Assembly: GCA_028277515.1 (NCBI GenBank) | Contig: JANQGC010000280.1 | Span: 1-64,000 of the forward strand | DNA from: Anaerolineae bacterium | Lineage (GTDB): Bacteria; Chloroflexota; Anaerolineae; Promineifilales; Promineifilaceae | DNA length: 64,000 nt | Reading direction: 5' to 3' | Shown here: one piece after another, positions 1,758 through 63,571 of the stretch | Layout of the letters: each line of letters opens with the position of its first letter | Numbering within the stretch: position 1 is the first letter of the stretch | Position numbers and translations under genes: made by a program | The notes under the pieces: generated by a model | Databases searched by the model: none | What the model saw: the letters and a program-made list of their open reading frames with translations, nothing else | Told to the model about the DNA's origin: nothing

Positions 1758-2816
1758 ATGGCTGAGGCTCCAAAAACACCTATAGGGATCGATCCAGGAT
1801 TACGCGAGGGATCGAATCAATCGCTGCTCCTGGTCAAATCTCTCGTCAAGGAATTTGTATTAAGTAAGTCTGGTTTGTTTAACCGTAATAAAGAGATGTT
1901 CAGAGCGGTTGACGGGGTATCCTTCGATATTCGCCGGGGAGAGACATTTGGACTTGTTGGTGAGTCCGGTTGCGGAAAGTCAACTACGGCACGGTGTATT
2001 CTGCAATTATTGAAGCCGACAAGTGGAGAGATTTGGTTCGATGGGATTGACCTTAACAATCTAAACGGTGAAGAAATGCGCCAATTCCGACAACGTATGC
2101 AGGTGGTTTTTCAAGATCCCCATGCCTCGCTCGATTCGCGCATGTCAATCCTTGATCTCGTTGCAGAGCCACTTTTAGTTCATGGCATAAAAGACCCAGC
2201 CCAACGCAAAAAAAGGGCGGAAGATATGTTGATGCGAGTGGGGATTAAACCAGAATTGGCAGATCGCAAACCCTTTGCATTTTCTGGCGGACAAAAACAG
2301 CGTGTTGGCATTGCGCGGGCCCTCATCCTTAACCCGGAATTCGTTGTGCTTGATGAACCTGTCTCGGCGCTTGATGTGTCCATTCAAGCACAAGTGCTCA
2401 ACTTGCTGCGGACCATGCAGCAGCAGTTAGATTTGACATACCTATTTATTGTTCATGATCTCATTGTCGCTGAATACTTTTGTGATCGACTTGCAGTACT
2501 GTATTTGGGATCTGTAATGGAAATGGCAAGCAGGGAACAGCTATTTAAAAAACCGCTGCACCCATATACTGTTGTATTGCTTTCGGCCGTTCCCGTTCCT
2601 GATCCTGCCGGTAAGGGCCGGGTAAAGCGAATTATTCTTGAAGGGGAAGTCAATGCTAATGTCATAAAGGAAGGTGGCTGCCGCTTTCGTTCTCGCTGCC
2701 CGGTTGGCAAAGACCGCGATATTTGCAGAGAACATGAACCCCCACTTATTGAGATGGCGCCCGATCATTGGGTGGCCTGTCACTTTGCCGGGGAACTAAA
2801 TATCAACGATATGTGA
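1758..2816 (+). CDS. dppF: Peptide ABC transporter ATP-binding protein DppF/OppF
   Basis: Second ATPase of the peptide importer. It has a Walker A motif GESGCGKST, a signature FSGGQKQR with Phe in place of the usual Leu, Walker B FVVLDEPVSALD and the H-loop in FIVHDL. The C-terminal cysteine-containing peptide-transporter extension is present (GGCRFRSRCPVG). The ATG begins 1 nt after the dppD stop, so the two are translationally coupled. This is the last gene of the operon: the next gene is about 190 bp away and belongs to iron regulation. Confidence 0.93.
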   Translation: MAEAPKTPIGIDPGLREGSNQSLLLVKSLVKEFVLSKSGLFNRNKEMFRAVDGVSFDIRRGETFGLVGESGCGKSTTARCILQLLKPTSGEIWFDGIDLNNLNGEEMRQFRQRMQVVFQDPHASLDSRMSILDLVAEPLLVHGIKDPAQRKKRAEDMLMRVGIKPELADRKPFAFSGGQKQRVGIARALILNPEFVVLDEPVSALDVSIQAQVLNLLRTMQQQLDLTYLFIVHDLIVAEYFCDRLAVLYLGSVMEMASREQLFKKPLHPYTVVLLSAVPVPDPAGKGRVKRIILEGEVNANVIKEGGCRFRSRCPVGKDRDICREHEPPLIEMAPDHWVACHFAGELNINDM

Positions 2817-2827
2817 CAGCAGCTGTC
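2815..2827 (+). terminator. Weak hairpin at end of the dpp operon
   Basis: GACAG and CTGTC pair around a CAG loop, overlapping the dppF stop codon, and a pyrimidine/T-rich run follows (TTATTCTCTCTTT). The stem is only 5 bp and the T run is interrupted, so it is a weak candidate for intrinsic termination. Confidence 0.3.
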
Positions 2828-2954
2828 TTATTCTCTCTTTGCAACAGCCATTTTTGAATGGATTGTTTTGTCTCTGCGGAGCGTTTTCCCAGCAGTAACC
2901 CTATGACATTCCTCATGGCCAGAGCATGACGAATGTCACTTATCTCATCACCCA

Positions 2955-2984
2955 TATAATTTATAATAAGGGCAACCTTATAAT
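2955..2984 (+). promoter_or_regulatory. Candidate DtxR-type operator overlapping promoter of the feo operon
   Basis: An inverted repeat ATAAGG-GCAA-CCTTAT (2966-2981) lies 27-42 bp upstream of the DtxR-family gene. Three overlapping TATAAT hexamers (2955, 2962, 2979) sit in and beside it, so a bound repressor would cover the -10 region. No good TTGACA box is visible. The dyad resembles the general form of DtxR/MntR operators. Assignment to autoregulation by the next gene is inference from position. Confidence 0.5.
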
Positions 2985-3007
2985 TTAGGATTTGGATTGC
3001 CCGAAAT

Positions 3008-3676
3008 ATGCGCACCCATTCGACCAGTAACGAAACCATCGAGATGTATCTCAAGACCATCGCCGAATTAAGCGGCAATGGCCGGCCGGTGATCATCGCC
3101 CGTGTGGCTGAGCGGTTGGGCGTGACGGCCGTCTCCGCCAATGAGATGATGAAACGGTTGGTGGAGCAGGAATTGATCGTCCATGAACGGTATAAGGGGG
3201 TGTATTTGACCCCGGACGGCCGCTATATGGCCAATAACGTCATCCGCCGCCAACGATTATGGGAATGTTTCCTGGTGGATCACCTTAATTTCAACTGGTC
3301 CGGCGTTTATGAAGCTGCCTGCCGCCTGGAACATGCTACCTCTAACGTTTTGGCCGAAGCCTTATCCGCTTATCTAGGCCACCCGGAATTGTGCCCGCAT
3401 GGCAATCCTATTCCTAAGGCTGACGGCTCCGTCGCCAAGACAGGGGGCTGCCCGCTTTCAGATTTGAAAGTTGGCGAATCAGCGACAGTGACCAGCATTG
3501 CGCCTATGGATACGGAGGTGTTCGCTTATTTGAGCCAGCATGGAATTGTGCCCAATCAAGAGATCAGGGTCACGGAGCGAGCGCCGATGAATGGGCCGAT
3601 TACGGTGCGTCTTGACTCACAACAGGTCTCCCTGGGCCAGGCCCTTGCGGCCATGGTCATGGTGGAGCGATTATAG
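3008..3676 (+). CDS. DtxR/MntR-family metal-dependent repressor
   Basis: Cytoplasmic metalloregulator of 222 residues. It has an N-terminal winged helix (about 8-75), a helical dimerisation/metal domain (76-145) and a C-terminal SH3-like FeoA domain (150-222). Aligned to DtxR from memory with a constant offset of +3, the primary metal site is kept (M13, C105, E108, H109). In the ancillary site E86 is kept, but the two histidines are replaced by Q82 and Y101. It heads an operon with feoA, feoA, feoB and a FeoC-like gene, so it most likely represses Fe(II) uptake when iron is sufficient. Manganese sensing cannot be excluded. A dyad operator lies just upstream. Confidence 0.9.
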   Translation: MRTHSTSNETIEMYLKTIAELSGNGRPVIIARVAERLGVTAVSANEMMKRLVEQELIVHERYKGVYLTPDGRYMANNVIRRQRLWECFLVDHLNFNWSGVYEAACRLEHATSNVLAEALSAYLGHPELCPHGNPIPKADGSVAKTGGCPLSDLKVGESATVTSIAPMDTEVFAYLSQHGIVPNQEIRVTERAPMNGPITVRLDSQQVSLGQALAAMVMVERL

Positions 3677-7047: not shown

Positions 7048-8025
7048 ATGGAATATAAAGATTACTATGCCATCTTGGGTGTCAGTAAAGATGCCAGCGA
7101 GAAAGACATCAAGAAGGCATACCGTAAATTAGCCCGCAAGTATCACCCTGATGTCAATCCGGGAGATGCCACGGCCGAAAATAAATTTAAGGATATTAAC
7201 GAGGCGCAAGAAGTCCTGCTCGATCCTGAAAAACGGCAGATGTACGATCGCTTTGGTTCGCAGTGGGAACAGTACCAGCGCGCCGGTGGCCAGGCACAGG
7301 ATTTTGATTGGTCGCAGTGGCAAAGCCAACCGGGTGGCGGGCGAACCACCTATCGTACGGTTAACCCGGAAGAGTTTGAAGAATTGTTCGGCTCTCAAGG
7401 TGGCTTTTCAGATTTTTTTGAAAGTTTGTTTGGTGGAGGAATGGCCGGCCGGCGGAATACTGGCGGTTTTGAGGGATTTGCCCAAACCCAGATGCCTCCA
7501 CGCCGCGGCCGTGACCAGGAATATACGGTGGAGATCACCCTGGAAGAAGCTTTCCACGGCACAACACGCATGTTGGAATGGGAAGGCGGCCGCAAAATTG
7601 AAGCCAAAATCCCACCGGGTGTCAAGACCGGCTCACGGGTTCGTCTAGGCGGGCAGGGTGGTTCCGGCCTCAGTGGTGGGAAAGCGGGCGATCTCTTTCT
7701 TAATGTGAAAGTTCGGCCGAACGATTCCTTTCAGCGGGAAGGGGATAATTTAAAAACAACCATCCCAGTAGACTTATATACGGCCATTTTGGGTGGCAAG
7801 GCTGAGGTCAGCACCATCGACCGCACGGTAAAATTGACTATTCCCCCGGAGACGGACAACGGTAAGCAGTTTCGTCTACGCGGCTTGGGGATGCCTAAAC
7901 TGCGGGAGCCGGGCGAACGGGGTGATTTATATGCTGTCGTTTCTGTTCAACTGCCAGGCAATTTAAGTGACGAGGAGAAGGATTTATTTCGGCAGCTTCA
8001 AGCAGCCAGACATTCATCCTCATAA
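7048..8025 (+). CDS. cbpA: DnaJ-type co-chaperone (CbpA-like, no zinc finger)
   Basis: An Hsp40 of 325 residues that stimulates the ATPase of DnaK. The J domain (about 1-70) contains the essential HPD motif (YHPDVNPGD). A Gly/Phe-rich linker follows (70-150), then two beta-sandwich substrate-binding domains (about 165-315). The cysteine zinc-finger repeats of classical DnaJ are absent, which makes it a type II/CbpA-like protein. The next gene, 12 nt downstream, encodes a CbpM/MerR-like modulator, the usual partner of CbpA. Confidence 0.92.
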
Positions 8026-38259: not shown

Positions 38260-40095
38260 TTATGACGAAGTTATAGAGCCTAAGACAGCCTCGAAGATAG
38301 GCTTAATTGTTGCCAATTCCGCCTCCTTGACCCATGAAACGAGACCAATAACCGGCTGAGGGCTGTCAGGAAGTGGATGAGCAACAGCTCCCACCAGCAG
38401 GATCGAACCATCATCAAAATTTGCGAAGCGATAGGTACCTATGGCCGCGTCCGGCCGGGAGGCCAGAGGGGCGGCCGGTTCAATGGCTTCTAATTTTTCA
38501 TCATATCCTTGTATGATGTTTTCCACTTCGGCCGACGGCGTGTCAGCCATCTGGCGATTGAGGTTATAGAGCAAATCCAAATAGGGGCCATCATCAGGCT
38601 GATCAGGGTCGGCAATAGAAGACCATATCGGCCGGCTGTTAGGGGTGATTTGCAAGGCTTTCATGCTCTCATAGATATTCCAACCGGGTGGATAAGCGAA
38701 AGATATATTCATGTCGGAAATTGTATGAATCAGCCACTCATCGGCCGCTGGGGATGAAGAGGGTAGGTCATTGGTCACATTGGGAATAAGCTCTTCCGGC
38801 AGGAATTCTCCCATCCGCCAGTAAGGGCCGCCGCACGATTCCGGAACCGGCATTTGCAGTTCGGCGTCATTTAGCGCACGCTGCGCTCCTCCACCCATGT
38901 ACACCGCTTCACCAACCTGGGCCACGACTGCGCCTGTCTCGTCTAAAATCTGAATACGGCCGTCATTATCGGTCAGGTAATAATCAGCCTGCCAGATAAT
39001 CAGGTAGCTTTCATTTTCGCTGTGGATACGCAGACAGTTGTCTTCGATCACCAATTCGCCAATGAGCAACGCCTCCATGAAGGCAACGTCGCGCTGTTTA
39101 AGCTGGGCCATATGCAATTCAGGAACGGGTGTAACCGGGAAGGGCGGAGGATCATCCAATGGCTCGTAAGTGCTGATCACGGCGACACTCGGCGGCAGTT
39201 CGCTCCCGGTCTCAGCCAGGACCGAATCAAATGCTTCCTGATCGGTCACATTAATTTCCACCTGGTTTTCCTGGACATTGATGCTAGAAGCGAAGGAAAA
39301 GCCGTGTATTTGCAGAAGGCTATTGGCCGTCTCCTGGTCAGCCAGCAGTTGGGCATAGGAATAGGTGACTGCTCGGGCTTTAATAACCGAAGCCAGCGGA
39401 TGGTTTTCCGAAACATATGGCTCCAAGATTTGCTGCGCATCACCGGTAAAGGCAGCAACAACCCGGTAAACAGGTTCATGCTCGATCCAGAGACCGGCAA
39501 ACGAATCCTCTTCCCCTGCCTGCAAGCGTGCTTGTAGCTCGGTAATGGCATCCTCATATTCCAGACGACGCAGGGCTTCTTCGACACTGATGCCCAGATT
39601 GGCGGCCATCATTTCCACATCTTGCATGATGGCTTCATCATTCGCTGATTCCGGTGTATCAACACCGGTTTCCAACCATTCGTCCCCGCCATAGATGATA
39701 TAGCGGCAGGCAACGCTGTTCGGGAGGAGCAGGCGAATGTTCCAGCGCATATAGTCATAAGCAGGCAAGGTAACAATCTCTTGAAAAGTGCCCTCACCGC
39801 TTATTTCCGGCTGGAGTTCAATAAGATCATCACTCCCGTCACCTGCTGCGCTGATGTGCAGGATCGGCCGATCGTCAGGCCGTAAGCCACCGGCCTGGAT
39901 ACGCAGATCAAGGCTATCAAGGGGAAAAATATCAAAAGAGAGATCAGAAGGCCAGGTCGTGCAAGCAGGTATCGAGCTGCTTTCCTGGTTGGTGGCAGTG
40001 GAAACGGCCTCCGGTTCGACTCCATTCCCAGATACACAACCAGCCAATACCATTAGCAAAACAAGGCAGACCAGAATCAGAATATTTGAACGCAT
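38260..40095 (-). CDS. Lipoprotein of unknown function
   Basis: A 611-residue exported protein with a lipoprotein signal (lipobox at C20, VLAGC). The mature part is rich in acidic and beta-forming residues. One C-terminal part (about 460-605, INISFAYPPGW-like NISFAYPPGWNIYESMK) resembles the PsbP/DUF1795 type of small exported domains. I recognise no active site. ATG with AAGGAG-like leader (AGGAGACTTTTTATC). It is followed after 110 bp of repeats by the TIMP-like gene. Confidence 0.72.
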   Translation of the reverse strand: MRSNILILVCLVLLMVLAGCVSGNGVEPEAVSTATNQESSSIPACTTWPSDLSFDIFPLDSLDLRIQAGGLRPDDRPILHISAAGDGSDDLIELQPEISGEGTFQEIVTLPAYDYMRWNIRLLLPNSVACRYIIYGGDEWLETGVDTPESANDEAIMQDVEMMAANLGISVEEALRRLEYEDAITELQARLQAGEEDSFAGLWIEHEPVYRVVAAFTGDAQQILEPYVSENHPLASVIKARAVTYSYAQLLADQETANSLLQIHGFSFASSINVQENQVEINVTDQEAFDSVLAETGSELPPSVAVISTYEPLDDPPPFPVTPVPELHMAQLKQRDVAFMEALLIGELVIEDNCLRIHSENESYLIIWQADYYLTDNDGRIQILDETGAVVAQVGEAVYMGGGAQRALNDAELQMPVPESCGGPYWRMGEFLPEELIPNVTNDLPSSSPAADEWLIHTISDMNISFAYPPGWNIYESMKALQITPNSRPIWSSIADPDQPDDGPYLDLLYNLNRQMADTPSAEVENIIQGYDEKLEAIEPAAPLASRPDAAIGTYRFANFDDGSILLVGAVAHPLPDSPQPVIGLVSWVKEAELATIKPIFEAVLGSITSS

Positions 40096-41304: not shown

Positions 41305-41553
41305 ATGCATATTATATCCAATGAAACTTTAGTTATTTTCTGGCGAAAATACCCAAATGCTGAAAATCATCTAAAAGGATGGTTTACAAAGGTCAAACAG
41401 GCAAATTGGCAAAATTTTGCCGAATTGAAACAAATGTACCCAACAGCCGGTTTAGTAGGACGTTTTAGGTCTCTATTCGCGTTGCGGCGAGAACCTCCGG
41501 CTCGCGATTGGCCAGCAGATCGCCGGAGAGGCGGCAGCCCAGCCAGAAGATGA
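41305..41553 (+). pseudogene. Truncated HigB-like toxin
   Basis: The frame begins MHIISNETLVIFWRKYPNAE and continues GWFTKVKQANWQNFAELKQ and AGLVGRF, which match the N-terminal half of HigB/DUF-type mRNA interferases. After about residue 55 the reading runs into the end of the convergent ABC permease gene and no longer resembles the family, so the catalytic C-terminal half is missing. No antitoxin gene follows. Probably inactive. Confidence 0.62.
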
Positions 41554-43147
41554 GCGCGGCGTAGGCCGCGGACAGGGGCAGGGCAGCAAAAACGATCCAG
41601 GGTTGATCGAGGAAGACGGCTAAGGCTAAAGGGATTGCGGCGGGAGCAGACAACAGGATGATCAGTGGAATCAGGGCAAACAAATTGGCCAGTGCGGGCA
41701 GGCAACCGCCACGCATGGAGAAGGAGCCACGCTTTTTACGGGATTCCTGGTCCACGGGGGAGGGAAAGAGGGTGGCGAAGACGGCCGTTACGCCGATGGT
41801 CGTCAACCCGGCCATAAGCCCGGTCAACATTCCTCCCACACTGATCCAATCTCTCAGGATAAAGAAAACAACGACGCCAACCAGCAAATAGGGCAATGAG
41901 CCAATGGCAAAGAGGGCCAGGCTCTTGCCATAAAAAATGCGCCGCCGCCCAACAGGTGTCAAGAATAAAACCGGAAGCCCCTTCCCCTCCCAGCCCAACA
42001 TATTAAAGGATGTCACCCAATAGAAAAATAGGGCAAAAACGGGCAAACCTAGACCAATAAAGCCGGAACCGAGAATATCACTAAAATCGGCATCGTTGCC
42101 AAACAAAACGAAGCCACTCATGAAAACTGGAGCTAAAAGACCTTGAATTAAGCCAACCCGTCGTTGAGGCGTGCGCCAGACGGTTATTAGCTCCTTTTGA
42201 AAAACCTGGGCGATGTCGTTGGGAAAATAGCGCAGCCAAATCGGTTGTCCCGTTGGGCGACCGGTTCCGATCTCCTTTTTTTGCGGGCGGGGAGGCAATC
42301 CTATCAGGTAACCATCCCCCGTGGTCAAACGGATCACCAATTTCCACCAGGCCCAGATGACCAATAAGAGTAGAACCGTCGAGTAAAGCAGCCAGCCAAC
42401 AGCGCCCATCCACTGACCGGTCGTAGCCTGGACGATAGCCTGGGCTGCCGCACCGGTGGGAAACCATTGCAGAACAGGCAAAACCCGAATTTCTAAAAGT
42501 TCCTCCGTACTCATCGTTTGGGTTAGATTTTCAATGACGCGTCCAAATCCGACCTGTAAAAAGTAGCAAGAGGAGCCTAATAAAGCGGTGAGGATAATAG
42601 CAACGTCGCGGAAGCGGCGGCTTTGCAATACCCCGCCCAGGGCTGTGCCCACCAGCAGACCGATGAACACCATGTGGGCGAAACTCAGGATAATGGCCAG
42701 GAGGACGATCGGTAAGGCCAGGCTGGCTCCCCAACCGATAAGTACCGCCAATAACAACGGTAAGGCCAGGTAGGTCGGGTAATCAAACAAAGTGCCTAAT
42801 AGCACCCCAGCGATTAAATCCCGCTTGCGCAGCGGATAAACCAGTAAATGCGTCAGATCAGCCGCCTCGTTGAGCGATGAAAAGAAGATGGGAAAAATCA
42901 GCCAGATCAGCCACAGCAGCACCAGGATAAAACCCAACAATTGGCCTGGCCAGGGCTGGGGCAATCGCAAATAGCCAATCCCCGTGCCGATAGCAGCAGC
43001 TATGACCAGCGGACCCAGGATTAATAAGGCGATGATCGCCCCAACCATGCGCCCCTTTTCTCGCGTGTAGCTGCGCAGCATCAACTTGCCCTTTAACCAC
43101 CACAGGCTGTTGACGCGCCGGGAGTCAAGCCCGATTATTCCAGCCAT
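41465..43147 (-). CDS. ABC exporter membrane subunit
   Basis: A 560-residue polytopic membrane protein with about twelve hydrophobic segments. It overlaps the ATPase gene by 13 nt, so the pair forms an ABC-2-type exporter. An amphipathic segment precedes the first helix (VNSLWWLKGKLMLRSYTREK). The substrate is unknown; similar pairs export antibiotics, lipids or peptides. Its 3' end overlaps the truncated HigB-like gene on the other strand. Confidence 0.84.
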   Translation of the reverse strand: MAGIIGLDSRRVNSLWWLKGKLMLRSYTREKGRMVGAIIALLILGPLVIAAAIGTGIGYLRLPQPWPGQLLGFILVLLWLIWLIFPIFFSSLNEAADLTHLLVYPLRKRDLIAGVLLGTLFDYPTYLALPLLLAVLIGWGASLALPIVLLAIILSFAHMVFIGLLVGTALGGVLQSRRFRDVAIILTALLGSSCYFLQVGFGRVIENLTQTMSTEELLEIRVLPVLQWFPTGAAAQAIVQATTGQWMGAVGWLLYSTVLLLLVIWAWWKLVIRLTTGDGYLIGLPPRPQKKEIGTGRPTGQPIWLRYFPNDIAQVFQKELITVWRTPQRRVGLIQGLLAPVFMSGFVLFGNDADFSDILGSGFIGLGLPVFALFFYWVTSFNMLGWEGKGLPVLFLTPVGRRRIFYGKSLALFAIGSLPYLLVGVVVFFILRDWISVGGMLTGLMAGLTTIGVTAVFATLFPSPVDQESRKKRGSFSMRGGCLPALANLFALIPLIILLSAPAAIPLALAVFLDQPWIVFAALPLSAAYAALIFWLGCRLSGDLLANREPEVLAATRIET

Positions 43148-54790: not shown

Positions 54791-55195
54791 ATGTCCTACA
54801 AAGTCTATTTTGCTGCGAGGTATAGTCGGCGTGGCGAACTCAATGAATATCGGTTGCAGCTTGAGGAACTTGGCATCGAAGTCACATCCCACTGGCTAGT
54901 AAATGATCCTCCAGCACCGATTAACGAACTTACGGAATCCCATTGGCGCGAACTGGCCGAGACAGATCGCCAGGACATTGGGTGTGCCGATGCACTTGTC
55001 GCATTCACCGAGTCACCACCTGGAGGTAATGGTGGTCGTCATGTCGAACTGGGCATCGGCATTGGAAAAGGGAAAGACATTGTAGTCGTGGGCGAGCCTG
55101 AGCACCTGTTTCACAAACTTGAATGCGTCCACGGCGCACCAGACTGGACTTCTGCTGTAGTGCTTCTCCAGAGACTTGCTAATGAACTAGATTGA
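54791..55195 (+). CDS. Nucleoside 2-deoxyribosyltransferase-like protein
   Basis: A 134-residue protein with the Rossmann-like core of the nucleoside deoxyribosyltransferase family: VYFAARYSRRGELNEYRLQL at the N-terminus, ADALVAFTES and the signature GGRHVELGIGIG with the likely nucleophile Glu. Members exchange or hydrolyse nucleobases, and are frequent in phage and mobile DNA. ATG with AAAGGA. The neighbourhood lacks CGGCCG sites, consistent with acquired DNA. Confidence 0.8.
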   Translation: MSYKVYFAARYSRRGELNEYRLQLEELGIEVTSHWLVNDPPAPINELTESHWRELAETDRQDIGCADALVAFTESPPGGNGGRHVELGIGIGKGKDIVVVGEPEHLFHKLECVHGAPDWTSAVVLLQRLANELD

Positions 55196-55284: not shown

Positions 55285-55584
55285 ATGAAATGTATAAAAT
55301 GCTTTGAAGGAAACCCACAAATCGGCGTGACTACGCTTACCTATGAGCGAGAAGGATCCGCTATTCAAATAAAAGTTGAGGGTATTCCCGCTGAGATTTG
55401 TCCAGTTTGTAAAGAAGTATACTTAAGTGAAGCAGTCGCTCAACAAATACATGATCTTGTGTCGCTCCTGCTAGAAATAGGCGAAGAAATGACGGAAAAA
55501 GCGATTTTGCCACCCCCTACAATCGTTATTCAATTCCCTCCACTTGAACCTGCTCAACTCAAATTAGCAGTAGCCTCTGTCTAA
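55285..55584 (+). CDS. YgiT-type zinc-finger protein (MqsA-like antitoxin half)
   Basis: A 99-residue protein with two CxxC pairs (MKCIKCFEG and EICPVCKEVYLS) as in the YgiT/MqsA zinc domain. The usual C-terminal DNA-binding helix-turn-helix of MqsA is absent, and no toxin gene (MqsR or DUF4258 type) is next to it. It may be a relic of a toxin-antitoxin module or a free-standing zinc protein. Confidence 0.72.
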   Translation: MKCIKCFEGNPQIGVTTLTYEREGSAIQIKVEGIPAEICPVCKEVYLSEAVAQQIHDLVSLLLEIGEEMTEKAILPPPTIVIQFPPLEPAQLKLAVASV

Positions 55585-55701
55585 CAAGGCATGAACCAGA
55601 CGCGGCTAGTTTATGGTAATTGAAGCGGCGCGGTTAGAGCAAAGGGTGTTCTAATCGCGTCGCGCCGGTTATGCAGGCTCTGCACTCTCACAAAATCCTT
55701 T

Positions 55702-55737
55702 AGGCGAAAATTTGCGGATGATTACCGGCAAATAATG
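55702..55737 (+). repeat. Left copy of a degenerate flanking repeat
   Basis: GCGAAAATTTGCGGATGATT and the following ACCGG resemble 60659-60694 (GCGAAAATTCGC...ATGATTGCCGG), with roughly 70 percent identity over 35 bp. The two copies bracket the restriction-modification genes. The remaining sequence of 55585-56110 holds only the small frame listed separately. Confidence 0.35.
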
Positions 55738-55768
55738 GCCTTAAGATTTGATTGACGAAGAGGTATAA

Positions 55769-55861
55769 ATGAAGATAATCACGACAGTATCTGGAAGGCG
55801 AATCCGGTTGCGGCATAAGAAGCCTGGCCCAAAACCACTGCCTGATAGCGTGATGAAATAA
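55769..55861 (+). CDS. Possible 30-residue basic peptide
   Basis: ATG 55769 with GAGG upstream starts a 30-codon frame (MKIITTVSGRRIRLRHKKPG, then PKPLPDSVMK) rich in Lys and Arg. No homology is known to me. It lies between the YgiT-like gene and the restriction endonuclease and may be chance. Confidence 0.2.
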   Translation: MKIITTVSGRRIRLRHKKPGPKPLPDSVMK

Positions 55862-56110
55862 CGAGCTAATATTTGTTTATCTCCATATTGGCATTAGGCA
55901 AGTAAAGCACGAACGGCCAGAAGAAAACTATCATTTTCTGAATAATTAGAGGTGTTGATTTATTGAGACTCAGTATACAATGAGTCAGGTTATTAAATAG
56001 TTGATCTGCTTCAAAGCTATTGGTGGAGCTTGTCATAATGAAGGTCAAAATTGCACCATACTAATTCTTGAAGAAAGTTGATATATTTTGGTCATTAAAG
56101 AGGAGCATTT

Positions 56111-57373
56111 ATGGAGCTAATCATACAGCCTTTCAGCATTCAAACATTGGGTGATATTCTAAAAGCAGCCTTGAATGGTGAGCTCGGTGAGTTTCACACA
56201 TTTCAAGCTGCTATTGCATTTGTGAAAAATTCAGGGGTGCAGCATATTCAGACCGAGTTACGCGAATTTATTCTTAACAAAAAAAATGTCAGATTCATTG
56301 TTGGTATCGATCACTATGGTACAAGTCAAGAAGCTTTGGGAGGGTTGCTACAAGCTGTTGGTGAGAAAGGAGAGATTTGGATCAATCATAGCAGCGATTT
56401 GTACATTACATTTCACCCGAAAATATACTTGTTTGAAGGAAATTCGATCGCGCTTCTTATTATTGGGTCTGGAAACTTAACCGAAGGTGGATTATATACA
56501 AATGATGAAGCTTCATCTCTTAACTGGCTTGATCTTAAAAAGGATAGCGATTTAGCAATACTAAACGAGTTGAAAGCGGATTTTGATGCTTGGTGCAATG
56601 AGGATTCAGGAAATGCAGTAAAGTTAGATCAGGAATTTCTGATCAAACTGGTAGAGGAAGGGTACATACTCTCCGAAACTGCAGTTCAGCCTGAAGGGCA
56701 GGTTGAGGCAACAAGCGAAAGGACACAACCTATACCTGCAAGCAGCAAAAAAAGCACTAAAATAGTCAATACTTTCCTATTTAGTAAAACTGCAATCAAG
56801 CGCTCTGCTCCCAAATATAAACATGCCTTTGCCCCCAAGCCTTCCAAACCGACATCCATTAAGCCAGATCAAGTTCCTATTGCTGTTACAAAGGATGAAG
56901 TTGAAGACAGTGATGAAGCTATAGGTTTTGTAATGACGTTACAACGTACGGATGTAGGAATTGGCCAAACAACACCTGGGACAAGTCGAAGATCACCAGA
57001 GATATTTGTTCCGTTAGCTGCTAGAGATTATTATCCCCCATTTTGGGGGTGGCCAGATAAATTCACCGAGGACTCAACACGACCTGGTAAATTTGACCGG
57101 TTAAATGTAAAGATACGTCTTGGTGGCGAAACGGTTAACGTTAATATGATGACATGGCCTATTAAGCACGATTTTAGATTGCGGAGTGAGTCTTTACGAA
57201 GTGCTGGAAATATTGGGGATATTCTCAGGATTGAAAAAACCACCAGTGAAGATCAGGGTTTTTCTTACTATGTTGAGATTGTTCCACAGGGAACTAGCGT
57301 GTATCAAGAATATTTGAAGCTGTGTATTAATAAAACACGAAACTCTTCGAGAGTGTGGGGATACTATAGTTAA
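56111..57373 (+). CDS. BfiI-type restriction endonuclease (phospholipase D fold)
   Basis: A 420-residue DNA nuclease. The N-terminal half has a phospholipase D-like active site: H102 and K104 in FHPKIYLF, S120 and N122 in GSGNLTEGG, and E133. Spacing of His, Lys, Asn and Glu (0, 2, 20, 31) is identical to that which I remember for the metal-independent restriction enzyme BfiI (H105, K107, N125, E136). A low-complexity Lys/Pro/Ser linker (about 200-275) joins a C-terminal domain (285-420) that probably reads the DNA sequence, as the B3-like domain does in BfiI. Convergent, with a 4-nt overlap, to two methyltransferase genes. ATG with AGAGGAG. Confidence 0.85.
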   Translation: MELIIQPFSIQTLGDILKAALNGELGEFHTFQAAIAFVKNSGVQHIQTELREFILNKKNVRFIVGIDHYGTSQEALGGLLQAVGEKGEIWINHSSDLYITFHPKIYLFEGNSIALLIIGSGNLTEGGLYTNDEASSLNWLDLKKDSDLAILNELKADFDAWCNEDSGNAVKLDQEFLIKLVEEGYILSETAVQPEGQVEATSERTQPIPASSKKSTKIVNTFLFSKTAIKRSAPKYKHAFAPKPSKPTSIKPDQVPIAVTKDEVEDSDEAIGFVMTLQRTDVGIGQTTPGTSRRSPEIFVPLAARDYYPPFWGWPDKFTEDSTRPGKFDRLNVKIRLGGETVNVNMMTWPIKHDFRLRSESLRSAGNIGDILRIEKTTSEDQGFSYYVEIVPQGTSVYQEYLKLCINKTRNSSRVWGYYS

Positions 57374-58989
57374 GCGTTTCTAAAAAATAGAATTGTCTCA
57401 GCATTACTGGCATTCTTTTTGAAAATATCCCGCGATATGAGCATTTCCATTGAAATTTCATCCTCTAATTTTAAGCCAACAACTTCACCTAACTGAGCCA
57501 AGAGTTTATCAGTTTCGATATCTATTCGCTGCCCCCCTGCAATTGTGTGATTATTTCCTACAACTACGTAAGCCGGTGCTCCTGGTCGAAGCATTTTCGT
57601 AAATGTTTCAAAAACTTGCCTCATTTCCAAAAAGTAACGTGCCAAGAGTGACGGTAAATTACGTCTCCGGAAACCAACGTCAGAATTGCTGTTAAGATCA
57701 TAAATAATATCAATAACAGAAACTATGTCATCGGTTAATCTAAATCGATTGCTTTTATATTCTTCCCAATAGCGTTGACGACGGCTATTAGTAACTTCTC
57801 GATTTCCTATCATATCATAGTCAAGCTGGCGATGTTTTGGGCGTGACAATAGACCAAGATAATATAGGCTCAATCGGTCAGTATCAAGATAGGGAAGGGC
57901 AGTTGCGTATGGTGGAGAAGTGACAATTGTGTCCACTTGCCCTACTAGATCGGGAAAAAGGCGATCAGTATGTTGCGTGTTTCCTTGCACAATTGTGGCT
58001 TTTCCTACCTCAAAATCAAGATTTTGATAAAGTAAAGCCAAAATAGTCTTAACCGAACGGTTCAACTCATTCAAAAACACAGCGAACACGTCAATGTCAA
58101 TATCAGTTCGTATTTCACGACGTACTCGTAGGTCATCATTTTTTTGCAATGACACTCTTCTAAGAATATTGCTTAAAGAGACTTTAAATAAATTTCGACA
58201 TGCCAGATCATCCACTTGCTCAATTCTCATTAAAATAGGATCTAGATGCGCCAATACATCTGGCGCAAACCACTTAGACAAGTATTCTCTAGTTTTTGAT
58301 TCAAGCGACTTGACCCATAGGAGTTCACTATTTTGGTTTACGGATTGGTTAAGTAAATCTTCTTTTAATGCTTCGTAATTAGATACCAAGCATTCAGGAT
58401 TAATGGATAAAATATCACACTTAACTTGACTGACTAATACAGATAAAGGGTTTAGATCAACACCATACGCACGATATCCCAACAAAACCGCCTCTGTTGG
58501 TGTTGTGCCACTGCCGCACATCAGATCAAGAACCTTTGATTTAGATGTTGTGTTAGCAATGTTTAACAGAGAACGAACCAACTGAGGGAAGAATTTACCA
58601 CGATATTCATGTATTCCGTGTGGCCCATAGCGAAGGTTGCGCCGTTTTTCTAAGGGAACTTGACCTTGAAACGGTAAGAGGCTTTGTAGTTCTTCCGAAC
58701 TAATGCCATTTCTTACCAGATTTGTTGTTGCTTCTCGGTATACTTGTCTGGTCAATAAACTCGGTACTACTTCTGCTTCCGGTGCAATAGTCTCCCAATA
58801 AGTTAAGCGATTGGCTAAGTAATTGTAAGACCTTGAAGATACAACCGTATAGTCAACAGGTTCATTATCACGACTTGGCCGAGCCACAGGCATACTCCCT
58901 GTTAGTGCTTCTAATTCTTTAACTGCAAGAATACGTTCAAAGGGTTGAATATATGGTTTTAGATGACAAGCTAATGTATAGTTCTCCAT
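57370..58989 (-). CDS. DNA methyltransferase of the restriction system (M1)
   Basis: A 539-residue amino-methyltransferase (N4-cytosine or N6-adenine). Motif I is VLDLMCGSGTTPTEA (about 165-180) and the catalytic motif IV TSPPYATA (about 350), with GVDLNPLS as motif II. About 170 residues lie between them, probably including a recognition segment. An N-terminal region of about 150 residues is extra. The ATG overlaps the TAA of the upstream methyltransferase gene (TAATG) and has an AGGAGG site. Two methyltransferases fit an asymmetric recognition site, as in BfiI-type systems. Confidence 0.87.
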   Translation of the reverse strand: MENYTLACHLKPYIQPFERILAVKELEALTGSMPVARPSRDNEPVDYTVVSSRSYNYLANRLTYWETIAPEAEVVPSLLTRQVYREATTNLVRNGISSEELQSLLPFQGQVPLEKRRNLRYGPHGIHEYRGKFFPQLVRSLLNIANTTSKSKVLDLMCGSGTTPTEAVLLGYRAYGVDLNPLSVLVSQVKCDILSINPECLVSNYEALKEDLLNQSVNQNSELLWVKSLESKTREYLSKWFAPDVLAHLDPILMRIEQVDDLACRNLFKVSLSNILRRVSLQKNDDLRVRREIRTDIDIDVFAVFLNELNRSVKTILALLYQNLDFEVGKATIVQGNTQHTDRLFPDLVGQVDTIVTSPPYATALPYLDTDRLSLYYLGLLSRPKHRQLDYDMIGNREVTNSRRQRYWEEYKSNRFRLTDDIVSVIDIIYDLNSNSDVGFRRRNLPSLLARYFLEMRQVFETFTKMLRPGAPAYVVVGNNHTIAGGQRIDIETDKLLAQLGEVVGLKLEDEISMEMLISRDIFKKNASNAETILFFRNA

Positions 58990-60416
58990 TATAATTTCCT
59001 CCTAATCACAGTATTACGCAGAATAACAATATGTTCGTCTTTAATTTTTCCAATTGCCGGATTGAAATATTTCTTTGTACTTTGTAGATTGCGGCTGATA
59101 TTCGCCTCAATTTTGTAGCCAATGCCTTTTGCTACTTCTATCAACAACTTATCATTTTCAATCGTTTCGCCTTTTAGAGTAGAGTCGCCAATAATGAAAC
59201 AAGCGAATCTGTTAGGGCGTAAAAATTGGGATAACCAAGACAAAACAGTATATAGCTCTCCCCTAAAAGTATCTACTGTGGCCGCGTTACGGCCTTTGCT
59301 ACTGTATTTACGGTGACTGCCAATTTCTTCTTGTTTAAATTTCGGCTGATCCATATCAAGCCAAAGCATCCTAGTACGATGATATAAGTGATAGCTAAAA
59401 GCGTTGGGGTAAGGGGGAGAACACACTACTAAATCGACGGGGCCAATTTCGGGTGGTTCAAGAACGTTCGCTCCATATACTTCAACAGATAAATGGTTGC
59501 TAACTTCTTCACTAAATTCAAGGGCACGTCTGGTGGCTTTTGCTAGAGAACGGCTAAAGTATTGTAAGGTATCTCCAGGTTTTATATTTTTTTCTCGTCT
59601 CACGTAACGAGTATCTGAATCCTGACGAGACACAGAAACAATGATTGAAGAAAATGCTACTAATGCAATCTCTCGTACCTTATCTTGATCCAAAAGCATG
59701 CATCTGTTTTTAATAAATGCGAGTTCATCGATCACATGTTGGTCAAACCAATCGTTAATACCATCAAAGTCGGGTCGTTCGGTCGGAATAGGAAAAGAGG
59801 GCATATCGGGAAACAGTGGGAGCGTTCCAACATGAGTTTGTTGGCTAAATGTTGACATTTCATCGGCTAACTCAAATAAGGGTATGGCTTCCTCTTCAAT
59901 AATCCGCACTGTTTTTGCTCGGCTAATTAGACAAGCTAAAGGGTTTGCATCTATCCCTATGGCATTGCATTCTAATCTAAGTGCTTCAATCAATGTGGTT
60001 CCACTGCCACAAAACGGATCCAATATCGTATCTCCAACAGAAGCGAGTTCGCGAATAAGCGTCTTTGGAATCTGCGGGATAAATTTTGCTGGATATGGAT
60101 GAATGGAATGAGTTAGGTATCCCGTATTCGCATCTTGAAAGTCCCAATCTACTTCTTTTAGCCGTGTAATGGCTCCGGTGTAAGGCTGATAAGTTTGGTA
60201 TAGTGCTTGGGTTTCCTTTACTTGTGGTTGGGTTTCAGAATTTTTATTTGCATAGTCTACAATAATTTGAGCCTCTTCTTTAGTGAAGACTCGCCAACCA
60301 TTCCGATTACGTTTCGGTTCAGAGACCCGTCCCTGTCGTAACCACCGAAGTAAGGTATCTCTATGAATGCCTGCCATTTCAGCAACTTTTTTGGTAGTGT
60401 ATGTACTGGAAATCAT
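58989..60416 (-). CDS. DNA methyltransferase with N-terminal MerR/excisionase-type HTH (M2)
   Basis: A 475-residue DNA methyltransferase. Residues 1-60 form a helix-turn-helix of the MerR/excisionase type (YTTKKVAEMAGIHRDTLLRW, then NRNGWRVFTKEEAQ). The catalytic part shows motif I ILDPFCGSGTTLIEA and motif IV VVCSPPYPNA. It modifies, with M1, the sequence cut by the nuclease. The HTH could repress its own operon: three 10-bp tandem repeats lie 30-60 bp upstream of its ATG. The ribosome site is weak. First gene of the methyltransferase operon. Confidence 0.87.
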   Translation of the reverse strand: MISSTYTTKKVAEMAGIHRDTLLRWLRQGRVSEPKRNRNGWRVFTKEEAQIIVDYANKNSETQPQVKETQALYQTYQPYTGAITRLKEVDWDFQDANTGYLTHSIHPYPAKFIPQIPKTLIRELASVGDTILDPFCGSGTTLIEALRLECNAIGIDANPLACLISRAKTVRIIEEEAIPLFELADEMSTFSQQTHVGTLPLFPDMPSFPIPTERPDFDGINDWFDQHVIDELAFIKNRCMLLDQDKVREIALVAFSSIIVSVSRQDSDTRYVRREKNIKPGDTLQYFSRSLAKATRRALEFSEEVSNHLSVEVYGANVLEPPEIGPVDLVVCSPPYPNAFSYHLYHRTRMLWLDMDQPKFKQEEIGSHRKYSSKGRNAATVDTFRGELYTVLSWLSQFLRPNRFACFIIGDSTLKGETIENDKLLIEVAKGIGYKIEANISRNLQSTKKYFNPAIGKIKDEHIVILRNTVIRRKL

Positions 60417-60446
60417 CTTAATAATCTCATGGGCAAATACGTCGAC

Positions 60447-60476
60447 TATATGTAAGTATATGTAACTATATGCAAT
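60447..60476 (-). promoter_or_regulatory. Three 10-bp tandem repeats upstream of the methyltransferase operon
   Basis: TATATGTAAG, TATATGTAAC and TATATGCAAT stand head to tail at 60447-60476, 31 bp before the M2 start. One repeat per helical turn is the pattern of an operator read by a multimeric protein. The likely reader is the HTH of M2. The element falls where the promoter must be. The rest of the 446-bp gap to 60862 holds the right-hand flanking repeat (60659-60694) and nothing else I recognise. Confidence 0.55.
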
Positions 60477-60658
60477 AAAGGTGATTTTGTCAATAGGTAT
60501 TTTCTTCCAATGTATTTGCTGCGCAACAAATCATTGTAGCCGAATTGCTAATCTTGGAGAGTTAATTAGGCACAAAAGTTGCCGCAAAAATGTAGCATCC
60601 GTTGCCAACTCGTAATTGGCTAAAATCTAAACCTTACACTCTAACAAACGCTTGTAGC

Positions 60659-60694
60659 GAAAATTCGCCTATGATTGCCGGTGGATGATAGGAT
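60659..60694 (+). repeat. Right copy of a degenerate flanking repeat
   Basis: GCGAAAATTCGCCTATGATT and following GCCGG match 55702-55737 at about 70 percent. With its partner it brackets the restriction-modification genes. The core GCGAA-AA-TTCGC is itself a small dyad, similar to the hairpin repeats at 38.1 kb, so it may belong to that family rather than being an attachment site. Confidence 0.35.
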
Positions 60695-60862
60695 GATAGC
60701 ATTGTCTCCCCTTAGCGCCGCTCTGAGCAGCTCATGACACTTTTCTCTCCAGATGTGCCGGTGTTCTAAGGGGACGGTTTAGACTTATAGATGAAAAAGG
60801 AAGCTCAAGGACACAAATACACGTTGAATTCAACGAGTTTTGGGTGCATAAGTTAAATCTTG

Positions 60863-63571
60863 ATGGCTACAACAGACCTCCTGCTCACTAAATTATTTCG
60901 GCCCAATGTACCGCCAAGATTAGTACGACGGCCGACCCTCAACCAGCGTCTCCATGAAGGACTGCAAAACGGCCGCCAACTCACCCTCATATCTGCCCCG
61001 GCCGGATTTGGCAAAACAACCTTCATTAGCAGTTGGATTGACACTTTAGAAATGCCGGTTAGCTGGCTCTCGCTCGATGCGGCTGATGATGATCCGGGTC
61101 GCTTTTTCACCTATTTGGTGGCCGCCTTGCAAAAAATAGATGCCCAATTGGGTAGTGAAATTGCCGGTGTTTTGCGGGCCGGGCAACTGCCTCCCCATGA
61201 TGTCATCAGTACCACCCTCGTCAACGACATTGTAGAAAGCGGGCGACGATTTGTCCTGGTCCTGGATGATTTTCAGGTCATCCAAGACAAAACCATTTTA
61301 CAGATTTTGCAAACATTTGTCGCCAATTTGCCACGGCCGCTGCATCTTATAATCCTGACCCGTGAGGAACCGGCGCTGCCCCTGGCCCGGCTGCGCGCCA
61401 ACAATCAGTTGACGGAAATTCGTGCCGCTGATTTACGATTTGGGGCGGCGAACACGGCCGTTTTTCTCAATGAGATCATGCGGCTCAAACTAAGCCAGGC
61501 AGACATCAACACACTAGAAAACAAAACCGAAGGTTGGGTAGTGGGCTTACAACTGGCCGGTTTATCCATCCGAGATCGGACCGATCCCTCAAAATTTATT
61601 GCCGAATTGAGCGGCAGCCACCGCCACATTTTAAGCTACCTGATCGAAGAAGTGCTCAGCGGACAAGATCCCGATGTGCAGAACTTTTTGTTGCAGACGT
61701 CGATTTTAGACAAGCTGAGAGGGGATCTGTGTGATGCGCTGACGGGTGGCAGCAACGGCCGTCTCCTTTTAGAACAGCTTTACAACGGCAACCTTTTTCT
61801 GATTCCCTTAGACGATGCCCAGCAGTGGTATCGCTATCATCACCTCTTTGCCGATTTATTGCGCGACCGGCAACATGCACTGCATGGATCGGAAACGCCC
61901 TTGCTTCATAAGCGGGCCAGCCAATGGTTTGCTAACGCGGGACTGTTTAGAGAAGCGATTCAACACGCGCTGGATGCTCAGGATTATGAAACGGCCGTAA
62001 CGCTCATTGAAACCCACGCCATGGATTTACTGCTGGCCTGGCATGCCAAAACCATCAAAAAGTGGATGCGCCAGATTCCTGAGAAGTGGGCAGCCAAAAG
62101 CCCCAAAACAAACCTCATGTTTGCCTGGATGTATTTGATGAGCAATAACGTCAGCCAGGCCTTGCCCTATATCGACCATTTGCAAAAAATGTTTGACGCA
62201 AACCAGCTTGATGAGACAGAGCCATCCATCAAGGCGGAGTGGCTGGCACTGCAAGCCAATTTGCTCAGCGCCCAAGGGAAGTTAGAGGAGAGTCTGGCAA
62301 TCGCCCAACGAGGGTTAGCAATTGTCCCTTTGGGGAATGATTACGTGCGCAGCCTCATTTATAGCGGCCTGGCTGTTACCTATATCCAGCTAAATGATCG
62401 AGAACGAGCTATCGAAGCGTACCAAATGTTGATTCAACACGGCCGTCTGTCCGGCAACCTTGTGTCCGAATTGATGGGTATTTCCGGGTTAGGGCTGTTT
62501 GCCATGGAACGAGGTGAGCTGCGCTATGCTTTTAAGCTGGCTTCTCAAGGCATTGAAACAGTGGAGCGCTCTGGTATTACCCCGCCGATTAGCGCCGCCG
62601 TTTATGGTGAACTGGGGGCCATTTATTATCAATGGTATCAGCTGGAAAAGGCGGAAACTTTTCTGGTACGGTCAGCGCAAGTGAGCAAACTGAGCGGGTT
62701 TAGTGATGCCGAAGTATATTATCATGTTTTTTTGTCTCGCATGGTCCAGCTTAAAGGTGATTTGGACACGGGCGCCCAGGAAATTGAATTAGCTGCAAAA
62801 GCAAAAAGGGTGGAAGCACCAACAGTCGTTCAAGAAGAGTTAATAGCACAACAAGTGCGTATCGCTCTCGCCCGTAACACGCAGGAGAGTGCGGAGGCCA
62901 TTCTCAACCCTTTCGGCTTCTTGTTTCAACCCAAATTAACCATCCCCCCTCTGCCGGCAGAAAGATTATTGAATCGGTCTACAGGCTTGCTTTACAACAG
63001 CGCCTTACGCATTATTTTGCACCGGGCACAAGCGGCAAATGTGTCGGCCGGCCTCCAATTAGCCAATCAATTGCTCAGCGAAGCTCAAAAAAGTCAATTG
63101 GTACCCATTGAAATTGAAACCCTGCTCATTCGCAGCCAGCTTTTGGCTGCTCTCGGTGATAATGCCGCCAGCCGAGCGGATGTGCTGGCTGCCTTAACTT
63201 TGGCAGAACCGGAAGGAGCGATTACCCTGTTTTTAGAAGAGGGTTTTTTCATCGTTAATGTACTGGCAAACCTGGATAATCTTGAGGGGAGGCTACAGGC
63301 GTTTCGCCACACAATATTGGCCACTGCTCCGGCACATCTGCAACCATCAGCCCCAATTGCCACTAATGAGACATTGGTTGAGCCTTTGAGCAGACGCGAG
63401 TTAGAACTCCTACAATTGATTGATAAAGGCCATACCAATCAAGAAATAGCAGAAGCGCTGGTTATTTCCTTACACACTGTTAAAAAACACAGCAGTAATA
63501 TTTATGCCAAATTGGGCGTGCGCAGCCGTACCCAAGCCGTTGCCAGAGCGCGTGAATTACAATTGCTCTGA
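60863..63571 (+). CDS. MalT-like LuxR-family ATP-dependent regulator
   Basis: A 902-residue STAND-type transcription factor. The N-terminal NTPase has Walker A SAPAGFGKTT (about 45-54) and Walker B LVLDDFQ; a winged-helix and a long tetratricopeptide-like helical sensor region (about 340-800) follow. The C-terminal LuxR HTH (about 840-902, LSRRELELLQLIDKGHTNQ) binds DNA. An ATP and an inducer normally drive oligomerisation. ATG 60863 is used; a TTG one codon upstream is less likely. The target is unknown; such regulators are numerous in Chloroflexota. Its eight or so CGGCCG sites contrast with the preceding island. Confidence 0.92.
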   Translation: MATTDLLLTKLFRPNVPPRLVRRPTLNQRLHEGLQNGRQLTLISAPAGFGKTTFISSWIDTLEMPVSWLSLDAADDDPGRFFTYLVAALQKIDAQLGSEIAGVLRAGQLPPHDVISTTLVNDIVESGRRFVLVLDDFQVIQDKTILQILQTFVANLPRPLHLIILTREEPALPLARLRANNQLTEIRAADLRFGAANTAVFLNEIMRLKLSQADINTLENKTEGWVVGLQLAGLSIRDRTDPSKFIAELSGSHRHILSYLIEEVLSGQDPDVQNFLLQTSILDKLRGDLCDALTGGSNGRLLLEQLYNGNLFLIPLDDAQQWYRYHHLFADLLRDRQHALHGSETPLLHKRASQWFANAGLFREAIQHALDAQDYETAVTLIETHAMDLLLAWHAKTIKKWMRQIPEKWAAKSPKTNLMFAWMYLMSNNVSQALPYIDHLQKMFDANQLDETEPSIKAEWLALQANLLSAQGKLEESLAIAQRGLAIVPLGNDYVRSLIYSGLAVTYIQLNDRERAIEAYQMLIQHGRLSGNLVSELMGISGLGLFAMERGELRYAFKLASQGIETVERSGITPPISAAVYGELGAIYYQWYQLEKAETFLVRSAQVSKLSGFSDAEVYYHVFLSRMVQLKGDLDTGAQEIELAAKAKRVEAPTVVQEELIAQQVRIALARNTQESAEAILNPFGFLFQPKLTIPPLPAERLLNRSTGLLYNSALRIILHRAQAANVSAGLQLANQLLSEAQKSQLVPIEIETLLIRSQLLAALGDNAASRADVLAALTLAEPEGAITLFLEEGFFIVNVLANLDNLEGRLQAFRHTILATAPAHLQPSAPIATNETLVEPLSRRELELLQLIDKGHTNQEIAEALVISLHTVKKHSSNIYAKLGVRSRTQAVARARELQLL

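Follow-up and report, generated by a model that had tools for sequence, protein, structure and literature searches.

The window analyzed here, 64,000 nucleotides from the start of contig JANQGC010000280.1 of an Anaerolineae bacterium, holds at positions 56111–60416 three genes that fill this interval according to open reading frame (ORF) calls: R, predicted to encode a phospholipase D (PLD)-type restriction endonuclease, and M1 and M2, predicted to encode DNA methyltransferases. The explanation favored here, with a probability of about 0.7, is that they form a horizontally acquired, Type IIS-like restriction–modification cassette with the architecture of the BfiI system, in which M2 also represses its own operon. 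R is a member of a distant group within a known kind of nuclease; the new part is the regulatory fusion in M2 with its repeats, a variant of methyltransferase autoregulation.

Features of the cassette (strand + or −; evidence in parentheses):
56111–57373, +: R, putative PLD-type restriction endonuclease, 420 amino acids (ORF, BfiI profile match, predicted structure, fold match)
56111–56680, +: R residues 1–190, PLD nuclease domain (profile, alignment, fold comparison)
56414–56416, 56420–56422, 56474–56476, and 56507–56509, +: predicted active-site codons H102, K104, N122, and E133 of R
56681–56914, +: R residues 191–268, predicted disordered linker, 78 amino acids by this boundary (model confidence, low identity)
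56915–57370, +: R residues 269–420, predicted B3-like DNA-binding domain, with a presumed N-arm at about 281–299 and a presumed C-arm at about 349–366
57370–57373, no strand: stop codons of R and M1, convergent and overlapping in TTAA (sequence)
57370–58989, −: M1, SPPY-type DNA methyltransferase, 539 amino acids, motif TSPPYATALPYLDTDR (PF01555, PADLOC, alignments)
58989–60416, −: M2, SPPY-type DNA methyltransferase, 475 amino acids, with an N-terminal winged helix (PF01555, PADLOC, model)
60234–60401, −: M2 residues 6–61, MerR/BldC-like winged helix-turn-helix (HTH), followed by a low-confidence linker at residues 60–76 (PF00376, model)
60445–60475, no strand: three direct repeats in 10-bp phase, ACTATATGTA/AGTATATGTA/ACTATATGCA, the proposed M2 operator (repeat finder, conservation)
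60465–60493, −: TTGACA-N17-TATAGT, the best sigma-70-like promoter of 55600–60900 (promoter scan)

A nuclease of predicted BfiI architecture

The first-pass annotation of this DNA had read the interval as a complete BfiI-type system of one nuclease and two methyltransferases. Its three genes were recovered at 56111–57373, 57370–58989, and 58989–60416, and the proposed architecture is supported by profile search, predicted structure, fold comparison, gene order, and co-occurrence. M1 and M2 run leftward and R rightward, tail to tail, with the four bases TTAA common to the stop codons of R and M1; the M1 and M2 genes overlap by one base. The guanine–cytosine (GC) content is 0.384–0.405 across 55500–60500 and about 0.45–0.52 in the flanks, as expected if the cassette is an insert from elsewhere.

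A search with the profile of the R family retrieved BfiI (2c1l) at E 4.8e-9 with both domains covered. Given this value and the 1432 proteins that match R at E ≤ 1e-3 (a count that includes relatives perhaps sharing the PLD domain alone), the likeness to BfiI is not a matter of chance. Alignment to BfiI and AlphaFold modeling had been suggested as checks; the model of R has a mean predicted local distance difference test (pLDDT) score of 85.7, and its best Foldseek match was BfiI, at 18–19% identity. In the VIA-align fold comparison, the absence of a match proves nothing. Profile, model, and fold comparison, the last with a strong match, agree on a PLD domain followed by a B3-like DNA-binding domain of the BfiI fold.

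The active site was examined by an ungapped HMMER alignment of R 100–137 with BfiI 103–140, by itself a weak match, which pairs H102, K104, N122, and E133 of R with H105, K107, N125, and E136 of 2c1l. These are exactly the active-site residues of BfiI according to a review (PMC4081073; the publications cited here are represented by excerpts, and statements drawn from them reach as far as those excerpts do). K104, N122, and E133 are invariant in 62 aligned family members and H102 is present in 61 of the 62, the remaining one having D, so that the HxK...N...E site at BfiI spacing, as claimed in the first-pass annotation, is confirmed by alignment and conservation. The long linker noted in the first-pass annotation is likewise there: 129 residue steps lie between residue 137 and the start of the recognition domain (266), as opposed to 54 in BfiI (140 to 194). 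Within the linker as bounded at residues 191–268, pLDDT falls below 50 at residues 195–219, 237–252, and 254–267, and by this boundary the span is 52–89 amino acids over the 62 aligned members. By analogy with BfiI, the PLD domains of two R molecules would pair to form one metal-independent active site; the C-terminal B3-like domains would read an asymmetric site.

The recognition domain had been described as diverged, which is true with respect to BfiI (the identity given above, and a Pfam match below cut-off) and not true within the family of R, where it is the most conserved part. Mean identity to the R of the window across 61 other members is lowest in the linker (17%), intermediate in the PLD part (52%), and highest in the recognition domain (68%), where it reaches 87% in the N-arm and 85% in the C-arm, both of them assigned in R from the fold. 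Because the recognition domain and the arm stretches are so strongly conserved, members of the family probably read one site. The first-pass annotation had considered a new asymmetric specificity likely; the data speak for a common site within the family and not for a difference from that of BfiI. Other cassettes combine related methyltransferases with different arms. The PLD protein of one of them, locus L003, aligns to R over residues 1–418 at 26% identity. At two further loci, PLD proteins adjoin M2-like methyltransferases (L031, 6718–8307; L032, 6711–7922) and have a C-terminal part that cannot be aligned to that of R; they align only over residues 6–196 and 6–217, respectively, and show other residues in the arm stretches. 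To judge from sequence, these cassettes probably carry other specificities on the same chassis.

R is in conserved linkage with two SPPY-type methyltransferase genes. It faces M1–M2 in L002 (Methylocystaceae), L003 (Ancylobacter; M2 without HTH), L007 (a Rhizobium plasmid), L038 (genome G1041), and L029 and L043 (both from a viral-contig collection; the L043 contig stops within M2), and also in genome G251, where R is in pieces on two contigs. In genome G225, M2–M1 lie on one contig and R on another, and L001 ends soon after R. At the R–M1 junction, the two convergent stop codons share 4 nt in the window, L007, and L029 and 7 nt in L002; in L003 they are separated by 3 nt. When the best 120 relatives each of R, M1, and M2 were compared, 51 of 118 distinct lengths of R-bearing contigs recurred in the M1 or M2 lists, 18 of them in all three. 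Shifted controls gave about one coincidence per pair of lists, and the relatives therefore co-occur far beyond chance.

The M2 winged helix and the repeats upstream of its gene

Both modification genes match PF01555 and the PADLOC model MTase_II (M1, E 6.5e-7 and 7.5e-71; M2, E 7.8e-19 and 3.2e-68), and some relatives of each are named cytosine-N4-specific by a source. M1 and M2 are SPPY-type, probably N4-cytosine methyltransferases; from their motifs and the comparison with BfiI, each may protect one strand of the site of R. A fold search with M2 returned AdoMet (S-adenosylmethionine)-dependent methyltransferases of other kinds, with no DNA methyltransferase among the 50 matches listed. M2 and M1 share one open frame, counted from stop to stop, in L030 (2319–5618, 1100 codons) and L031 (3731–6715, 995 codons). 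Proteins of 929–933 amino acids among the M1 relatives (P0327, P0333, P0344) have a length that fits an M2–M1 fusion; one is from Okeania, and its contig is as long as that of an R relative.

The first-pass annotation was silent on a MerR-type domain in M2 and on the repeats in front of the gene. M2 residues 7–44 match the Pfam MerR model (PF00376) at E 7.7e-8, above cut-off, and 42 of 43 M2 family members scanned match it at E ≤ 0.01, the aligned row of L002 beginning after the domain. In the M2 model (pLDDT 80.8), two helices are followed by a wing strand and by a third helix that ends at residue 61; confidence is low from there to residue 76, and no coiled coil as in classical MerR dimers is therefore predicted. 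A sequence search of the PDB with residues 1–65 gave MerR-family chains, including CarH and RacA, at E 0.002 and above. The M2 frame of L002 is broken at the HTH (about 7133–7283), and the winged helix is absent in L021 (2172–3329)/G251.

The three repeats lie 29–59 bases upstream of the M2 start. The arrangement TATATG, four bases, TATATG is found upstream of M2 also in L038, L007, L029, and L020, and the unit consensus over 11 distinct locus–unit pairs is (A/C/T)(C/G)TATATG(C/T)A, with one exception in L020. The exact pattern, TATATGN4TATATG, was present at all five loci with an intact HTH-M2, at neither the single broken-HTH locus nor any of 11 HTH-less M2 loci. HTH-less here denotes a match to M2 that begins after residue 68 and in which no HTH motif was found, rather than the result of a domain search; 12 of 13 such loci were used (L037 omitted), L041 lacked upstream sequence, and L033 and L034 have nearly the same tblastn match in the same frame, leaving about 10 independent loci. 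Among 20000 shuffles of each upstream stretch, the exact pattern arose 8 times for the window, 8 times for L038, and never for L007, L029, or L020. When repeats were sought without a preset pattern, the best 9-mer repeat within periods of 9–12 had period 10 in all five HTH-M2 loci, and in four of them 0–1 of 300 shuffles reached it; for the 11 HTH-less loci the lowest count was 47 of 300 (L035).

On a larger scale, the pattern has a single copy in each of the genomes G1041 (9.0 Mb) and G225 (5.8 Mb), in both cases upstream of M2; genome G002 lacks it. These genome-wide counts were made after the pattern had been fixed. Across the 359,735 bases of the window and loci it occurs only in front of HTH-M2. 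A reverse search of viral contigs with TATATGCANNTATATGCA gave 31 stretches, one of which (L055, the L029 contig) has HTH-M2 motifs; the other 30 are taken as chance in a very large collection. A stricter unit pattern added three copies (L057, L064, L083) at loci without HTH, M1, or M2 motifs, and nothing related was seen at the two of these that were looked at.

The repeats also coincide with the core promoter. The promoter listed above agrees with consensus at 11 of 12 positions and its −10 box falls within the repeats, which is the geometry of a repressor site. In L038, TTGACA-N17-TATACT stands in the same relation to the repeats and has the same score, and L020 has TTGACA with a weaker −10 element. 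Promoter-like sites are not more numerous than chance in 55600–60900 (13, compared with 12.4 in shuffles). The repeat finder detected no repeats in front of R in the window; for this reason, and because the exact pattern in the window and loci is confined to sites in front of HTH-M2, the proposed operator is not extended to R.

A self-repression model and its competitors

Based on these data, a simple model would make M2 a regulator as well as an enzyme: its fused winged helix would bind the AT-rich tandem repeats, one helical turn apart, and, because these cover the −10 box of the M2–M1 promoter, bound M2 would repress the operon. By analogy with M.SsoII, M2 most likely represses its own M2–M1 operon, through a BldC-like domain. 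When the cassette enters a naive cell, no M2 would be present and M2–M1 would be made at once. As sites become methylated, free M2 would accumulate, occupy the repeats, and shut down the operon, while R, from its own repeat-free promoter, would then catch up. An extended form of the model, whose odds we place a little short of even, makes M2 enzyme, sensor, and repressor in one chain: the winged helix would polymerize head to tail on the repeats and unmethylated sites would titrate M2 away, so that the operon would measure unprotected host DNA and time the onset of the nuclease without a C protein; the same switch would serve a cassette moving between phyla. No intrinsic terminator was listed near the convergent stops in the scan, and it may be speculated that M2–M1 transcripts run on into R as antisense.

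Several observations weigh against the favored explanation. On the side of the nuclease, the Pfam model BfiI_DBD (PF18243) scores R at 15.3 bits against a cut-off of 25, with nearly the whole profile aligned, and only 4 of 62 family members match it at E ≤ 0.01 (23 match the NgoFVII PLD model); the predicted structure of R is a monomer. On the side of regulation, the 20 matches listed in the PDB sequence search with the winged helix do not include BldC. The five-of-five count is partly circular, because several of the five loci had already been seen when the pattern was defined. The pattern-free repeat of L020 was reached by 20 of 300 shuffles, and L002, with its broken HTH frame, lacks the exact pattern. 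A backward control pattern occurs once in G1041, perhaps at the same repeats. In 150 genomes from the class to which G001 belongs, there are 8 pattern copies, in 8 genomes, versus 14 of the control, so that the pattern at large is neither rarer nor commoner than the control. No HTH, M1, or M2 motifs were found in the 8 loci (2–3 kb) fetched around those copies. No sigma-70-like promoter was found at the repeats of L007 and L029 at the scan threshold. Finally, repeat sense relative to M2 varies (CATATA in the window and L038; TATATG in L007, L029, and L020). Such variation would be accommodated by a domain like BldC, whose AT-rich direct repeats are spaced by one helical turn and lie in opposite orientations at two promoters (PMC5859096).

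The principal competitor is a plain BfiI-type cassette in which the winged helix assists target recognition by M2 and the repeats are an AT-rich promoter feature or the site of another regulator. Added DNA-binding domains are common on methyltransferases, and HTH-less M2 relatives exist with the same kind of partners (L003, L031). It is nonetheless judged unlikely, since the repeats track the winged helix, in the counts given above, from Chloroflexota to a Rhizobium plasmid and a contig of the viral collection, and occur at a single place in each of two genomes (G1041 and G225). Much lower odds are given to an ATP-dependent system resembling CglI or NgoAVII, in which a PLD–B3 R protein needs a separate ATPase: R.NgoAVII (4rct) has the same domain order and matches both the family profile and the R model, but no helicase was found among the Pfam-scanned neighbors of the cassette in the window or recognized in the adjoining ORFs of L002, L003, and L029 (which were read, not domain-searched), and two SPPY-type methyltransferases are present rather than one C5 enzyme. 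Equally improbable is an anti-phage PLD nuclease, abortive or Type IV-like, that is not confined to a site and has protective methyltransferases next to it. In its PLD part, R also resembles SauUSI (7clg) and PLD proteins encoded in other neighborhoods; against this stand the dedicated B3-like domain with its nearly invariant arms and the linkage of R to two methyltransferases, in co-occurrence and at the loci.

Distribution, setting, and relation to known systems

Listed members of the R family, where named, have general names (HKD family nuclease, for example). A sample of 400 genomes from the phylum of G001 contains 5 with a match to R at E ≤ 1e-10; in two of the 5, the match is limited to the PLD part or to 66 residues of the recognition domain. 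HTH-M2 is seldom encountered in the sampled genomes: in that phylum, 2 of 400 genomes match M2 at E ≤ 1e-40, one without HTH, and in the class of G001 5 of 396 genomes match M2, one over the full HTH length. Around G002, 1 of 398 and 1 of 199 genomes match, both being the frame-broken L002 locus, and the match in the order of G1041 (1 of 25 genomes) is G1041 itself. Seventeen plasmid records match R, two over at least 80% of the query; of five opened, only the Rhizobium plasmid has the same cassette, the other four having other neighbors. No match to R was found in phage records. Viral contigs gave no match to single-sequence R or M2 queries, and 2 and 9 loci, respectively, to alignments of R and M2. 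Since relatives of this low-GC insert occur in several phyla, the cassette does not by itself establish the phylum of its host.

In L029, a serine-recombinase-like ORF, identified by reading (2045–3478), lies upstream of the M2–M1–R cassette on the viral-collection contig, which suggests mobility of the cassette. L007 has a UvrD-like helicase gene upstream of R, adjoining a PD-(D/E)XK nuclease gene; other loci are without that pair, which is probably a separate one. Near the cassette in the window, a small CxxC protein (55285–55584, +) has sub-cut-off Pfam matches to YokU/MqsA-type antitoxins and no evident adjoining toxin partner, and a nucleoside 2-deoxyribosyltransferase-like protein (54791–55195, +), below the Pfam cut-off, lies just beyond the low-GC stretch. 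Farther away, two large ORFs of 611 and 560 amino acids (38260–40095, −; 41465–43147, −) have no Pfam match at E ≤ 1e-8.

A general question is how a system with an asymmetric site and two methyltransferases spares a new host, and it becomes open to direct test in a methyltransferase that has a MerR/BldC-type domain built in and a proposed operator of its own. If the model is true, direct-repeat binding by MerR-like domains extends from a stand-alone regulator to an enzyme. Among the open-license papers listed in literature searches, none was found to describe the fusion of an N4-type methyltransferase to a MerR-type winged helix together with repeats of this kind. The R family is also large and little studied: as excerpted, the review cited above describes few PLD-type restriction enzymes as studied, and in 2014 already called nucleases of this kind far from rare (PMC4081073).

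The closest known systems are BfiI/BmrI (Type IIS, ACTGGG 5/4), which have in common with the window an N-terminal PLD domain, a C-terminal B3-like domain, the HxK-N-E site, and two methyltransferases. R differs from BfiI in its low identity, in 75 more residues between the PLD motif and the recognition domain, and in the arm residues of the alignment. A possible further difference is that M2 of the window carries a MerR-type winged helix with upstream repeats. CglI and NgoAVII also have a PLD and B3-like R protein, but they need a superfamily 2 (SF2) ATPase and have one C5 methyltransferase (PMC4267653, in the excerpt); neither an adjacent SF2/DEAD ATPase nor a C5 methyltransferase was found in the Pfam scan of the window neighbors and both methyltransferases.

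With respect to regulation, M.SsoII/M.Ecl18kI is a methyltransferase whose N-terminal DNA-binding domain represses its own gene; M.SsoII competes with RNA polymerase at its promoter, thereby favoring R expression (PMC3978073). M2 shares a fused N-terminal DNA-binding domain and dedicated repeats at its own promoter. M.SsoII is, as excerpted, a C5 enzyme with a domain modeled on the phage 434 repressor and an inverted repeat, whereas M2 has no C5-cytosine methyltransferase domain and belongs to the PF01555/SPPY class instead, with a MerR-like winged helix and direct repeats; it would work alike without being a member. BldC and M2 both have a short MerR-like winged helix without a coiled coil, and AT-rich repeats about 10 bp apart accompany it at the M2 locus; BldC is described as a stand-alone 68-residue regulator, whereas the M2 winged helix is built into an enzyme. 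In two further groups, too, restriction–modification genes have direct repeats at their core promoter. RptR represses such a promoter via three 9-bp repeats, two over the −10 box, 58–31 bp upstream of the start codon (PMC12255303), and the C proteins/HsdC of Mollicutes control theirs through direct repeats, several HsdC homologues being fused with modification subunits (PMC5282649). In the excerpted accounts, these regulators differ from M2 in belonging to other regulator families and in having been studied with Type I systems.

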